From Bartonella massiliensis (GTDB lineage Bacteria; Pseudomonadota; Alphaproteobacteria; Rhizobiales; Rhizobiaceae), in the NCBI RefSeq assembly GCF_902150025.1, contig NZ_CABFVS010000039.1, forward strand, positions 1 through 64,000: DNA of 64,000 nt, given 5' to 3'. Below the pieces are notes generated by a model that saw nothing but the letters and a program-made list of their open reading frames with translations, had not been told where the DNA came from and searched no databases. The position numbers were made by a program, and so were the translations under genes. Every line of letters starts with the position of its first letter. The first letter of the stretch is position 1. Of the stretch, positions 32,432 through 36,640 are shown piece after piece.

Positions 32432-33580
32432 TTAGCTAAACCAACAAAAATAATCATTAAAAAAGACAAAAATTATAAAAAGGAAAAGAAGAGAAAAGCC
32501 TAAACGAACAGCCATTCCCTGAATTTTAGCAGATATCTTCCTCCTCGTGATGACCTCAATGACATGAAATAAAAGATGCCCACCATCAAGCGGTAGAATC
32601 GGAAAAAGGTTAATAAGCCCAACACTGATCGAAAGAAGAGCCGCCAAATTTAACAAAGAGATAAAACCTGTCTCGCTTACTTTCCAAGCAATTTTAACGG
32701 TTTTAGAAGGCCCACTTAGTTGACAACGATCTTCTTTCCCCCCGATTAAACGACTCATAAAAAGAACGGTTTGAGTAGCAATAAACACGGTACGGTTTGA
32801 TGCTTCTTTTACAGCTTTTACAAAATCATAGCGAATATGCTTTATATAAGCTGGATCTAAACGTGCAGGATTACTTAAATCAACAGGTCCCCCCACACCG
32901 ATCATAGCACTTTGTGTTTGATTACCAAACCCATCATCTCGCTCAACGACTTTCGGGGTAATGACCGTTGTAAATTCTCGCCCCATGCGTTCTATTTTAA
33001 ATTCTATCGGTTTTTTTCCATGCAAAGCGACATAATTCATCAAATCTGTAAAACTTTCAACCCGTTGACCATCCATTTCAATAAAACGGTCCCCTAACTC
33101 CAAACCGGACTGAACAGCAGGGCTATCTTTTACTAAAGAACCAACAACCGGTTCAATGATAACACGACCATAAATAAGAAAAAAAAATGTTAGAATAACA
33201 ACAGTCAAAAGAGCATTAAAGAAAGGACCAGCAAAAACAGTTGCTGCTTTTTTCCAAGCATGTGCACGCGCAAATGAACCCTCAACAATCGGAGATGATT
33301 GGGAGGATACGGCATCGATTTTTTCCTCTTCGCCAACAAACTTTACATAACCACCTAAGGGAATAAGCGCTAAGCGCCACTTCGTGCCATGTTTATCTGT
33401 GTAACTGGCGACTTGTGGCCCAAATCCAAGTGAAAAAACCAAAGCCTTAATACCACACCACCGCCCAATAAGATAATGACCAAGTTCGTGCACAAAAATA
33501 ATAATCATAACGATGAAAAGAATACTCAAACTTCTTAAAAGAAAGTCACCCATAGTGACGATATGATTTAAAAATCCCAA
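32432..33580 (-). CDS. rseP: RIP metalloprotease RseP (site-2 protease)
   Basis: 382 residues, inner-membrane zinc protease. The HExxH motif is in IIFVHELGHYLIGRW near residue 30, a PDZ domain spans about 130-215 (SPAVQSGLELGDRFIEMDGQ), and INLFPILPLDGGHLLF supplies the third zinc ligand. It cleaves anti-sigma factors and remnant signal peptides within the membrane. It follows cdsA by 15 bases. No dxr lies between cdsA and rseP as it does in some relatives. Confidence 0.93.
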   Translation of the reverse strand: MGFLNHIVTMGDFLLRSLSILFIVMIIIFVHELGHYLIGRWCGIKALVFSLGFGPQVASYTDKHGTKWRLALIPLGGYVKFVGEEEKIDAVSSQSSPIVEGSFARAHAWKKAATVFAGPFFNALLTVVILTFFFLIYGRVIIEPVVGSLVKDSPAVQSGLELGDRFIEMDGQRVESFTDLMNYVALHGKKPIEFKIERMGREFTTVITPKVVERDDGFGNQTQSAMIGVGGPVDLSNPARLDPAYIKHIRYDFVKAVKEASNRTVFIATQTVLFMSRLIGGKEDRCQLSGPSKTVKIAWKVSETGFISLLNLAALLSISVGLINLFPILPLDGGHLLFHVIEVITRRKISAKIQGMAVRLGFSLLFLFIIFVFFNDYFCWFS

Positions 33581-33595
33581 AATATATTCTCCCCA

Positions 33596-34411
33596 TTAAG
33601 CCATGCTAAAAAGATTAAAAGGTGTGTCCATATCAGACATAAAAGAACCAATTAAATAAAGAAGAAAAGTCGCTCCTACCAGCCCATCCATACGATCCAT
33701 AAATCCACCGTGTCCAGGCAATAACGAACTTGAATCTTTAACAGAAAACCGTCTTTTAAGCCATGATTGTCCTAAATCACTTAATTGTGAAACAATTGAC
33801 AAAACGAGTGTAAGGAGTGGCACAAAAAAACTTGCTAAATTTATATCAAAAAATCCAAAAGCAACCCATATACCACCCAAAGCACCGAAAAATGTACCTC
33901 CAAGTGCTCCTGACCATGTTTTATTAGGAGAAAATTGTGGTGCTAATTTAGCCCCCCCCAATGCACGGCCGATAAAATATCCACCAATATCTGTTCCCCA
34001 CACTATCGTAAATAAGAAAATAACAACTTGGAACCCCAACATCTCATGATCTCGTAAAAAGCATAAAGCTGCAACAGGAAGAGATGCATATAAAAAACCA
34101 CAAAAAACCCAACCACTCTTTTTTATAGAGAGAATAGCCAAAACCACGGCCAAAGAAATTAAACCACAAAAAACCAATGAAGCAGATAATCTCGACACTA
34201 AAAAAAAGCCAAAGAGAAAATAAAAAATACTTGCTAGTATTTTTTGTAAAGCACACCACTTCTCTTGAGTAATACGCATCCACTCATAAAGAATAAAACC
34301 ACCAATACACCATGCAAATACAAAAAAGGTGATTCCTCCCAACCACGTTAGATACAAAGCAATAACACCAAACACAAAAGCTGTCAGAGTACGATAGACC
34401 AAATTAGACAA
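33596..34411 (-). CDS. cdsA: phosphatidate cytidylyltransferase
   Basis: About 271 residues when started from TTG 34411 (LSNLVYRTLTAF), which matches family length; the frame is open further to GTG 34495. Neither has a clear Shine-Dalgarno. It has about seven membrane segments. The CDP-diglyceride synthase signature is in SQLSDLGQSWLKRRFSVKDS with LLPGHGGFMDRMDGL. It makes CDP-diacylglycerol for phospholipid synthesis. Immediately upstream, where uppS should be, there is only a relic. Confidence 0.9.
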   Translation of the reverse strand: MSNLVYRTLTAFVFGVIALYLTWLGGITFFVFAWCIGGFILYEWMRITQEKWCALQKILASIFYFLFGFFLVSRLSASLVFCGLISLAVVLAILSIKKSGWVFCGFLYASLPVAALCFLRDHEMLGFQVVIFLFTIVWGTDIGGYFIGRALGGAKLAPQFSPNKTWSGALGGTFFGALGGIWVAFGFFDINLASFFVPLLTLVLSIVSQLSDLGQSWLKRRFSVKDSSSLLPGHGGFMDRMDGLVGATFLLYLIGSFMSDMDTPFNLFSMA

Positions 34412-34522
34412 AACAACATCCAAACAATAAAAGTAAAAAATACAAACTCTAAAATTGATGCAATAAAAATCCCCTACACAGTATCTTTCTTGCACACTTG
34501 TACAAATTTCTCTTATAATTTA

Positions 34523-35109
34523 TCATAAATGATCTCGCCTACCAAGATAGCGCTTACAAGACAAATAATCAATGAGAGTAGATCAAAATCTTCCTTATTA
34601 AGGTTAATCCTAAAATAAGTTTTCAAATATTTTTTCAAACATAAAATGAAAAAGCAGCTATCTACGCCCTACATAAACTAATTCACATAGGTTTCTTAAT
34701 AGCATTACGATTATTTAAAGCTGAAATTTCATTGCTTTTAAAAACTTTTCTATCAACGCTTCGCCACAAAAAAAATAAGCCCCCCCCCCATAACATCCGC
34801 TTAATCCATCCTATGCGCATGATTTTATCGTTGAATGTAAGAACAATGCATTATTTTTTGCATTATATTTTTTCCAAATTCCATTTTGGAATATTGAAGT
34901 AGTCTTTAAATAATGTTTTTACGCAGTTTAACAAAGGCATACTAAACAAAAATCTCACCACACTGTTAAGAGTATTCTCCAGCAAAGGATATGATTCACT
35001 TCACAGGTTAAAGAATAAAAGCAGAAGCCTTTGCTAAATGCAATCTTTCTTCTATAAAGATGACAAAATGCCCCCTGTATCACACCACACTTGCTATCAT
35101 AATGCGCAT
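34523..35109 (-). pseudogene. uppS: undecaprenyl diphosphate synthase relic
   Basis: The 686-base gap between frr and cdsA, exactly where uppS belongs in Alphaproteobacteria, contains three diagnostic fragments in three different frames. From about 35070, GHFVIFIEERLHLAKASAF aligns position by position with the family start HxAIIMDGNGRWAKxRGx, with the catalytic Asp region DGNGRW changed to EERLHL. From about 34976, NTLNSVVR... and KTLFKDYFNIPKWNLEKI match the LTLFAFSxENWxRPxxEVxxLM block. From about 34590, DYLSCKRYLGRRDHL-stop matches the C-terminal RxRRxGGR end. Stops and frameshifts separate them. The start used here is approximate. The gene is dead, so an essential activity must be encoded elsewhere. 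Confidence 0.8.
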
Positions 35110-35181
35110 ACCCCCTGTTCTTATCTATAAAGATAACTTACACTCTGGGCGTATAATATCTTTTTTTAATGCAAAACGGTC

Positions 35182-35742
35182 CTAAACGTGCATAATTTCA
35201 GATTCTTTCACGGCTAAAATTTTATCGATATCAGCAATCGTTTCATCTGTGAGTTTTTGAACTTTTTCAGATAAATTATGGGCTTCATCTTGTCCAATTT
35301 CACCATCTTTTTCTAACTTTTTCAAATTATCCATACCATCGCGACGAACATGACGTGTAGCAACACGCGCTTGCTCTGCATATTGATGCGCAATTTTTAC
35401 AAGCTCTTTACGACGCTCTTCATTCAATTCAGGCAAAGGAATACGTAAATTTGTACCATCGGTTATGGGATTCAAACCAAGACCAGAATCACGGATAGCA
35501 CGTTCCACAGCTCCTACCATTGTTTTATCCCATACAGAAACGGAAAGCATCCGTGGTTCGGGAACAGAGATATTTGCAACCTGATTGATGTGCACAACAG
35601 AACCATAAGATTCAACAGTCAATGGTTCTAATAAACTGGCCGATGCTCGTCCCGTCCGCAAACCACCCAATTCATGTTTAAAAGCTGTAATAGCACCATC
35701 CATGCGACGTTTCAGATCATCCATAATTGATGTAATATTCAT
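35182..35742 (-). CDS. frr: ribosome recycling factor
   Basis: 186 residues. It dissociates ribosomes after termination together with [23 protein letters not shown] then [32 protein letters not shown] and [20 protein letters not shown] are textbook RRF blocks. The start is ATG 35742, or the internal Met seven codons in. It follows pyrH by 38 bases. Confidence 0.96.
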
Positions 35743-35780
35743 ATTTATGCCTCCTTCAATTTATCTTTTGAAGATTACCT

Positions 35781-36500
35781 TTATTCTGATACTATTGTAA
35801 AGCGTCCAGTTCCATTCAAGACCTTAGCTAAACCGCCTTTTTCATGAATGGAATACACAATAATCGGCACATTATTCTCACGAGCTAAAGTAACCGCCGT
35901 TGAATCCATCACCGATAATCCCCATTGCAAAATTTCAACATGCGTTAATTGATCAAAACGCTTAGCCGTAGGATCTATTTTGGGATCTGCTGAATAAATA
36001 CCATCAACTTGTGTTCCTTTAAGAAGGACATCTGCACCAATTTCCGCTGCACGTAAAGTTGCAGCAGAATCAGTGGTAAAAAATGGATTTCCCGTACCAC
36101 CCGCAAAAATAACAACTTTTCCCTGATTCATATAAGCTATTGCTTTACGTTGTGAGAAACTTTCACAAATTTGTGGCATAGCAATCGCAGAAAGAACTAC
36201 GGTTTCAACCCCTAATTTTGTTAATGATGTTCGCAATGCTAAAGAGTTAATAGCGGTTGCAAGCATTCCCATATGATCACCTGTCACACGATCACCACCA
36301 TGTGAAGCAACAGCAACACCACGAAAAATATTTCCCCCACCGATAACAACCGCAACTTCTATCCCCATTGCCCGCACTTCTGCAATATCAGCGGCAATAC
36401 GGTCAACAACAGAAACATCAATGCCAAAACTCTGCCCCCCCATAAGAGCTTCACCAGAAGCCTTTAAAAGAATACGTTTATACGGAAGCGCTAATGCCAT
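35781..36500 (-). CDS. pyrH: UMP kinase
   Basis: 239 residues, hexameric bacterial UMP kinase of the amino-acid-kinase fold. It makes UDP for nucleotide and sugar synthesis. YKRILLKASGEALMG, VVIGGGNIFRG, DHMGMLATAINSLAL, FAGGTGNPFFTTDSAA and MDSTAVTLARENNVPI are characteristic. It lies between tsf and frr as usual. Confidence 0.96.
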   Translation of the reverse strand: MALALPYKRILLKASGEALMGGQSFGIDVSVVDRIAADIAEVRAMGIEVAVVIGGGNIFRGVAVASHGGDRVTGDHMGMLATAINSLALRTSLTKLGVETVVLSAIAMPQICESFSQRKAIAYMNQGKVVIFAGGTGNPFFTTDSAATLRAAEIGADVLLKGTQVDGIYSADPKIDPTAKRFDQLTHVEILQWGLSVMDSTAVTLARENNVPIIVYSIHEKGGLAKVLNGTGRFTIVSE

Positions 36501-36597
36501 TCATAATCTCCCCAAAAGCACATTATCTTTTTGCTTTTGACACCATGAAGGGCACCACTTCTTTCATGTGACGCCCTCTTAACAATTATATTGTTTC

Positions 36598-36640
36598 AAT
36601 CAGAGATCCTAAAACCAATAATGATTTTAAATCTCTGATT
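36598..36640 (-). other. long hairpin between tsf and pyrH
   Basis: Inverted repeat AATCAGAGAT / ATCTCTGATT (10 bp) enclosing a smaller TAAAA / TTTTA pair. It has no T run on either side, so it is more likely an RNA processing or stability element than a terminator. Confidence 0.4.

Follow-up and report, generated by a model that had tools for sequence, protein, structure and literature searches.

A uppS relic between frr and cdsA in Bartonella massiliensis and the graded loss of uppS in the genus

The frr-cdsA gap of Bartonella massiliensis

Undecaprenyl diphosphate, the lipid carrier of peptidoglycan, is the product of the cis-prenyltransferase UppS. Here we describe a locus at which the gene for this enzyme has died. 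The window, by which we mean the whole stretch of 64,000 nucleotides analysed, belongs to the 90-contig assembly of Bartonella massiliensis (genome G000). It carries on the minus strand an operon in the order rpsB, tsf, pyrH, frr, a gap, cdsA, rseP, bamA and lpxD (names assigned by eye, except for frr and cdsA, which are backed by Pfam). The features of the region are the following:

35182..35742, minus strand: frr, ribosome recycling factor, intact (Pfam RRF, 1.3e-63)
34509..35159, minus strand: uppS relic (unitary pseudogene), from the MAFFT projection of the intact uppS of strain F02, start to stop codon
34780..34789, minus strand: ten consecutive G (C on the plus strand) inside the relic
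34526..34555, minus strand: C-terminal RERRFG-region fragment KRYLGRRDHL, in register, aligned to residues 226-235 of F02 UppS
33596..34462, minus strand: cdsA, phosphatidate cytidylyltransferase, intact (Pfam CTP_transf_1, 1.4e-48)

The gap measures 719 bases between the stop of frr and the first residue that we used for cdsA, and the cdsA frame is already open from a GTG at 34495. No frame for UppS is present in the gap: at most 60 codons run without a stop, and the sequence has neither the frame of about 240 codons nor the HxAIIMDGNGRWA, FSSENW and RERRFG motifs of a functional UppS. An Rfam scan of 33400-36600 gave no match, and the repeats inside the gap are short. The run of ten C pointed out in an earlier note on this DNA is indeed present within the relic; read as G, it is the longest such run among the 52 frr-cdsA gaps examined, three others having runs of 7 or 8.

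Like the earlier note, we conclude that the gap is a dead and heavily eroded uppS, in other words a unitary pseudogene, between an intact frr and an intact cdsA. This reading holds on the synteny of the slot, on graded relics in relatives and on a chain of DNA alignments. The relic shares with the UppS family (PF01255) its place between frr and cdsA and, by way of intermediate relics, its DNA homology; it differs in having no reading frame, motif or product.

Similarity of the gaps to uppS

We scored 38 gaps (L067, which contains N, was excluded) with a frameshift-tolerant profile built from nine Bartonella UppS proteins, comparing each gap with 100 dinucleotide shuffles. The window gap scores 26.2 against a shuffle mean of 29.3, with 81 of the 100 shuffles reaching its score, and its reverse complement scores 29.7. 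The window relic has decayed past recognition at the protein level. The translated search, which the earlier note had named as a way to overturn its proposal, indeed finds the window gap no better than shuffles, and it is the DNA chain described below that reveals the relic instead.

Ten of the 38 gaps reach a z of at least 4 against this profile. The highest values belong to A05 (71), WD12.1 (49) and melophagi (42), followed by DB5-6 (8.9), bacilliformis (8.4), rochalimae (6.6), clarridgeiae (6.2), washoeensis (4.6), G70 (4.2) and senegalensis (4.0); the scores of the washoeensis and senegalensis gaps are each reached by 1 of 100 shuffles. The rattimassiliensis gap has a z of 3.1 and the other 27 gaps, the window's included, stay below 2. 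As a separate observation, the frr-cdsA gap of B. rattimassiliensis (L043) is 1090 bases long, of which about 420 are extra and lie towards frr.

Alignment of the gap with the uppS of relatives, proposed as a check in the earlier note, leads at the DNA level through DB5-6 to intact uppS. Almost the entire window gap can be aligned with that of DB5-6, at 60% identity (z 31, 0 of 60 shuffles). The DB5-6 gap in turn matches the regions that carry intact uppS in F02 (z 42) and in G004 (z 47). Compared directly with intact F02 and G004, the window gap gives weak scores (z 4.0 and 4.4, 0 of 60 shuffles in each case). Comparisons with the A05, melophagi, bacilliformis and rochalimae gaps gave z values from -0.6 to 1.2, as two separately decayed relics would be expected to give. 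The link between the window and uppS therefore runs through DB5-6 and its neighbours.

In a MAFFT alignment of 18 gaps, F02 uppS falls at window positions 35159 to 34509, and the MAFFT map onto this intact gene gives the register of three UppS fragments that had earlier been read, in order, in the gap. The C-terminal one, KRYLGRRDHL, is in register, whereas the two N-terminal ones are out of register: HFVIFIEERLHLAK (35029-35070), taken for the UppS start motif, maps to residues 35-50 rather than 6-19, and KTLFKDYFNIPKW (34881-34919), taken for the LTLFAFSxENW block, maps to residues 88-105 rather than 51-61. The reported loss of the catalytic Asp was thus read at the wrong place; the site aligned with HxAIIMDGNGRWA is 35109-35144, and there is no intact motif there either. 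Because the profile score lies within the shuffles and two of the three fragments are out of register, we reject the motifs as evidence for the relic.

Presence of uppS in the genus, the order and the class

An intact uppS lies between frr and cdsA in every one of the 14 Bartonella genomes whose PF01255 match is unbroken, and the four outgroup genomes examined likewise show an intact uppS frame in this slot; the opposite case raised in the earlier note, a slot devoid of uppS in all relatives, is not what we find. Among 39 named Bartonella loci, a frame of uppS length in the slot is seen in F02 only. Across 71 Bartonella genomes, PF01255 is over cut-off in 15, including the frame-broken G067, and not over cut-off in 56, of which 7 show weak matches (up to E 1) and 49 no match at all. 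The window's genome is among the 56: the PF01255 search found no match in it and was positive in 14 of 14 control genomes. Several of the genomes without a match over cut-off are single contigs. In G067, counted as over cut-off, uppS lies in two frames and there is a break in the UbiA-family gene as well, which may point to an error of assembly. Genome G018 is 85% complete and also has no MraY-family match, and therefore gives no firm evidence of uppS loss.

Within the class, 290 of the 292 genomes that are at least 98% complete match PF01255. The misses are G000 and G351; apart from the window's genome, the family is thus missing in 1 of 291. G351 (rated 100% complete, 1.2 Mb, 60 contigs) is a possible independent case. 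For the order outside Bartonella, 21 genomes match PF01255 in a set of 24 that is smaller and less filtered than the class set, and the three that do not match are 88 to 94% complete.

A profile of five Bartonella UppS rows, read up to E 10, finds matches in 4 of 10 uppS-minus genomes and none in G000. Three of these matches are stop-riddled pieces, all between frr and cdsA; the fourth (E 0.25) lies elsewhere, within a 647-codon frame. The loss of uppS in Bartonella is graded, with intact, half-decayed and erased states.

The weak PF01255 matches of G087 and G034, which lie in long open frames, were considered as a diverged synthase and rejected. Both belong to one SIMPL (DUF541) family, the G087 protein by a scan and the G034 protein by similarity judged by eye.

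The rest of the carrier-lipid and peptidoglycan pathway

Most of the Bartonella genomes examined are without uppS and have kept the rest of the cell-wall pathway. The MraY family is present in 40 of 41 Bartonella genomes (the miss is the incomplete G018), and the MraY of the window's genome is over the NCBIfam mraY cut-off. Ten dcw-cluster proteins (mraW through murB, named by eye) occur in each of the 14 related genomes compared, of which 10 are uppS-minus, except that ftsI is in two pieces in G016 and the last protein is partly covered in G003. This last protein also has in-frame stops in nine genomes, which we judge to lie upstream of the true start. MurG is kept where examined, and the lipid II flippase MurJ is found in 15 of 15 Bartonella genomes, in two frames in G016. 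The two MurJ frames overlap (G016:C1:328012-329348, a single-contig genome); together with the divided ftsI, they reflect either sequencing error or real breakage.

Each of 41 Bartonella genomes, whether uppS-plus or uppS-minus, carries exactly two trans-prenyl synthases (PF00348), and no third copy that might serve as a replacement is found in any of them. In the window's genome one copy passes the NCBIfam cut-off for farnesyl diphosphate synthase, and the other is closest to octaprenyl diphosphate synthase, below the cut-off of that model. It had been suggested in the earlier note that a copy elsewhere supplies the function; no recognisable gene answers to this, the genome having neither a UppS-family match nor an extra trans-prenyl synthase. 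The UbiA family is present in 71 of 71 Bartonella genomes, with one copy broken in three. At G034:C1:927255-927939 and G025:C1:439587-440359, one of two UbiA-family genes is in pieces, about 10 kb from the long-chain prenyl synthase gene.

A BacA-type undecaprenyl-diphosphate phosphatase (PF02673) is found in 1 of 41 Bartonella genomes and is missing in 9 of 10 uppS-plus genomes too; the absence is seen both at L153 (G003) and across the genus. All 41 do carry a PAP2 phosphatase, and that of the window's genome resembles the undecaprenyl-diphosphate phosphatase PRK11837, below cut-off. The part of a Bartonella bacilliformis drug-target paper cited here lists MurG and a UppP of 22,650 Da (PMC7416641); by its mass, this UppP could be the PAP2 protein.

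For the DgkA-type kinase (PF01219), 12 of 15 Bartonella genomes give no match, namely ten uppS-minus ones (including G000), G004 and G031. The kinase is over cut-off in G007 and G014, which we take to be of a bee-type group (this label and that of a mammal clade, used below, are our assumption from the named species and from genome sizes), and is weak in G003.

Number and timing of the losses

A FastTree phylogeny of eight flanking proteins places F02, with its intact uppS, beside A05, with its relic (support 0.994), and a tree of ten dcw proteins pairs A05 and F02 again (bootstrap 83, SH-aLRT 99). For the proteins of the frr-cdsA region, a single clade of the 16 uppS-minus rows (of 24) is rejected and at least three changes are required (AU p 0.023, a modest value obtained without a mixture model and for a grouping set after the first tree had been seen). 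For the ten dcw proteins in 15 genomes, a single uppS-minus clade is also rejected, with at least two changes (AU p 0.031, likewise modest and without a mixture model). Deep nodes are weak and differ between the trees, and in the dcw tree two nodes inside the mammal clade have a bootstrap of 24.

Because two gene sets reject a single loss, uppS probably died at least twice, two to four times, a count that we hold loosely. The common ancestor of the losing lineages was then probably already able to do without uppS, since the repeated loss of a normally essential gene suggests that the need for it was already covered. Between F02 and G004, uppS has a dN/dS of 0.098, indicating purifying selection. 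Its dS between the two is 1.10, within the range of eight neighbouring genes (0.76-1.20), so a regain by recent transfer is unlikely.

Possible sources of the carrier lipid

Since no extra synthase is found in PF00348 or PF01255, either an existing enzyme doubles or an unknown one was gained. By elimination, IspB, the ubiquinone-chain synthase, is the most likely supplier of the carrier lipid. We rank it first because it is the sole long-chain synthase found, in 41 of 41 genomes, and because BacA is missing even from most uppS-plus genomes, leaving PAP2. A ubiquinone-10 chain (C50) is usual in the class. In the mechanism that we propose, IspB, as the only long-chain prenyl diphosphate synthase left, would also make the carrier chain, and its product would be all-trans, and C50 if it is the ubiquinone-10 chain. 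A PAP2-type phosphatase would dephosphorylate this product, BacA being missing from nearly the whole genus, and MraY would use the all-trans polyprenyl phosphate in place of undecaprenyl phosphate.

The known lipid-carrier enzymes accept all-trans carriers poorly, which counts against IspB. In a comparison of IspB from 38 of the 41 genomes, no position has different residues at the level of at least 90% between 11 uppS-plus (or bee-type) and 27 uppS-minus genomes, and IspA shows no change around its first Asp-rich motif (by eye, seven sequences). A change in IspB accompanying uppS loss is not strictly required by double duty; with no mark of re-tasking in IspB or IspA, the case for dual use rests on elimination. 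The joint explanation, with a uppS pseudogene, repeated loss across the genus and IspB as the carrier source, is one that we put forward tentatively, at slightly less than an even chance of being right as a whole.

The main rival is an unknown synthase, non-homologous or unrecognisably diverged, that was gained by the ancestor of the losing lineages and made uppS redundant, so that uppS decayed repeatedly. Repeated losses together with purifying selection on uppS in two lineages would fit such an inherited spare enzyme, and neither PF00348 nor PF01255 fills the hole. However, the matches to these two families contain no candidate, the weak ones of G087 and G034 being SIMPL proteins, and we consider this synthase unlikely, if deserving of serious weight. 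The uppS-minus species named here are host-associated and blood-dwelling, which counts for uptake of the carrier lipid or a polyprenol precursor from host, vector or serum, as in Rickettsia. In the passages cited, Rickettsia parkeri depends on host isoprenoids (PMC6854040) and Anaplasma marginale has nearly all peptidoglycan genes without UppS (PMC5481527). Against this, a DgkA-type kinase able to phosphorylate scavenged polyprenol is unmatched in most of the Bartonella genomes searched, and B. quintana is described as able to grow in axenic culture in the cited portion of PMC11983613, possibly in a medium with serum or blood. Uptake is the less likely for the mostly unmatched DgkA and the axenic growth stated for one species, and we hold it to be improbable.

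Two further readings would remove the need for a substitute or the loss itself. Peptidoglycan might be dispensable or reduced, so that no carrier is needed; the loss of uppS itself speaks for this, as do the MurJ and ftsI genes in two pieces in the uppS-minus G016. The retention of MraY (40 of 41), of the ten dcw proteins (14 of 14) and of MurJ (15 of 15) argues the other way, as does the discussion of MraY as a detected protein in a B. quintana proteome (PMC11983613), and we think this reading very improbable. Scarcely credible is an artefact of assembly or search. The window's assembly is in 90 contigs, but the slot is assembled and holds the relic, which refutes an artefact for the slot itself. 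A match over cut-off is missing in 56 of 71 genomes, single-contig ones included, and all 14 controls are positive.

Discussion

Anaplasma is obligately intracellular, and mycobacteria keep other members of the PF01255 family. Both offer partial precedents. As reported in the text cited, A. marginale resembles Bartonella in keeping peptidoglycan genes without uppS and differs in that its D-Ala-D-Ala genes are missing as well (PMC5481527). A review states, in the section cited, that uppS occurs in almost all the peptidoglycan-positive species it covers except mycobacteria (PMC5814848); these too keep peptidoglycan genes without uppS, but other, shorter carriers are reported for them. Unlike in either case, no member of the PF01255 family is detected in the B. 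massiliensis genome, and the stages of decay can be traced within one genus. R. parkeri is, like Bartonella, a host-associated alphaproteobacterium with a hole in the isoprenoid supply for its cell wall; according to the cited part of PMC6854040, it is the upstream isoprene units that are missing there, and the C55 carrier is still measured, whereas Bartonella keeps the IspA and IspB synthases and UppS is gone. Among the matches listed from the open-licence literature, the excerpts contain no prior report of uppS loss in Bartonella.

We are fairly confident that a large part of the genus makes its carrier without a recognisable cis-prenyltransferase. The carrier would be either an all-trans polyprenyl phosphate whose chain also serves ubiquinone synthesis or undecaprenyl phosphate made by a synthase of a new class, and the switch probably came before the repeated, independent deaths of uppS.

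The graded loss of uppS alongside a kept lipid II pathway would amount to a natural experiment on whether the carrier must be a cis-polyprenyl. The uppS-minus Bartonella delimit the genomes in which the substitute can be sought. In the passage cited from PMC6339874, UppS counts as an essential target for antibacterials; we predict that UppS inhibitors would be ineffective on the uppS-minus species.
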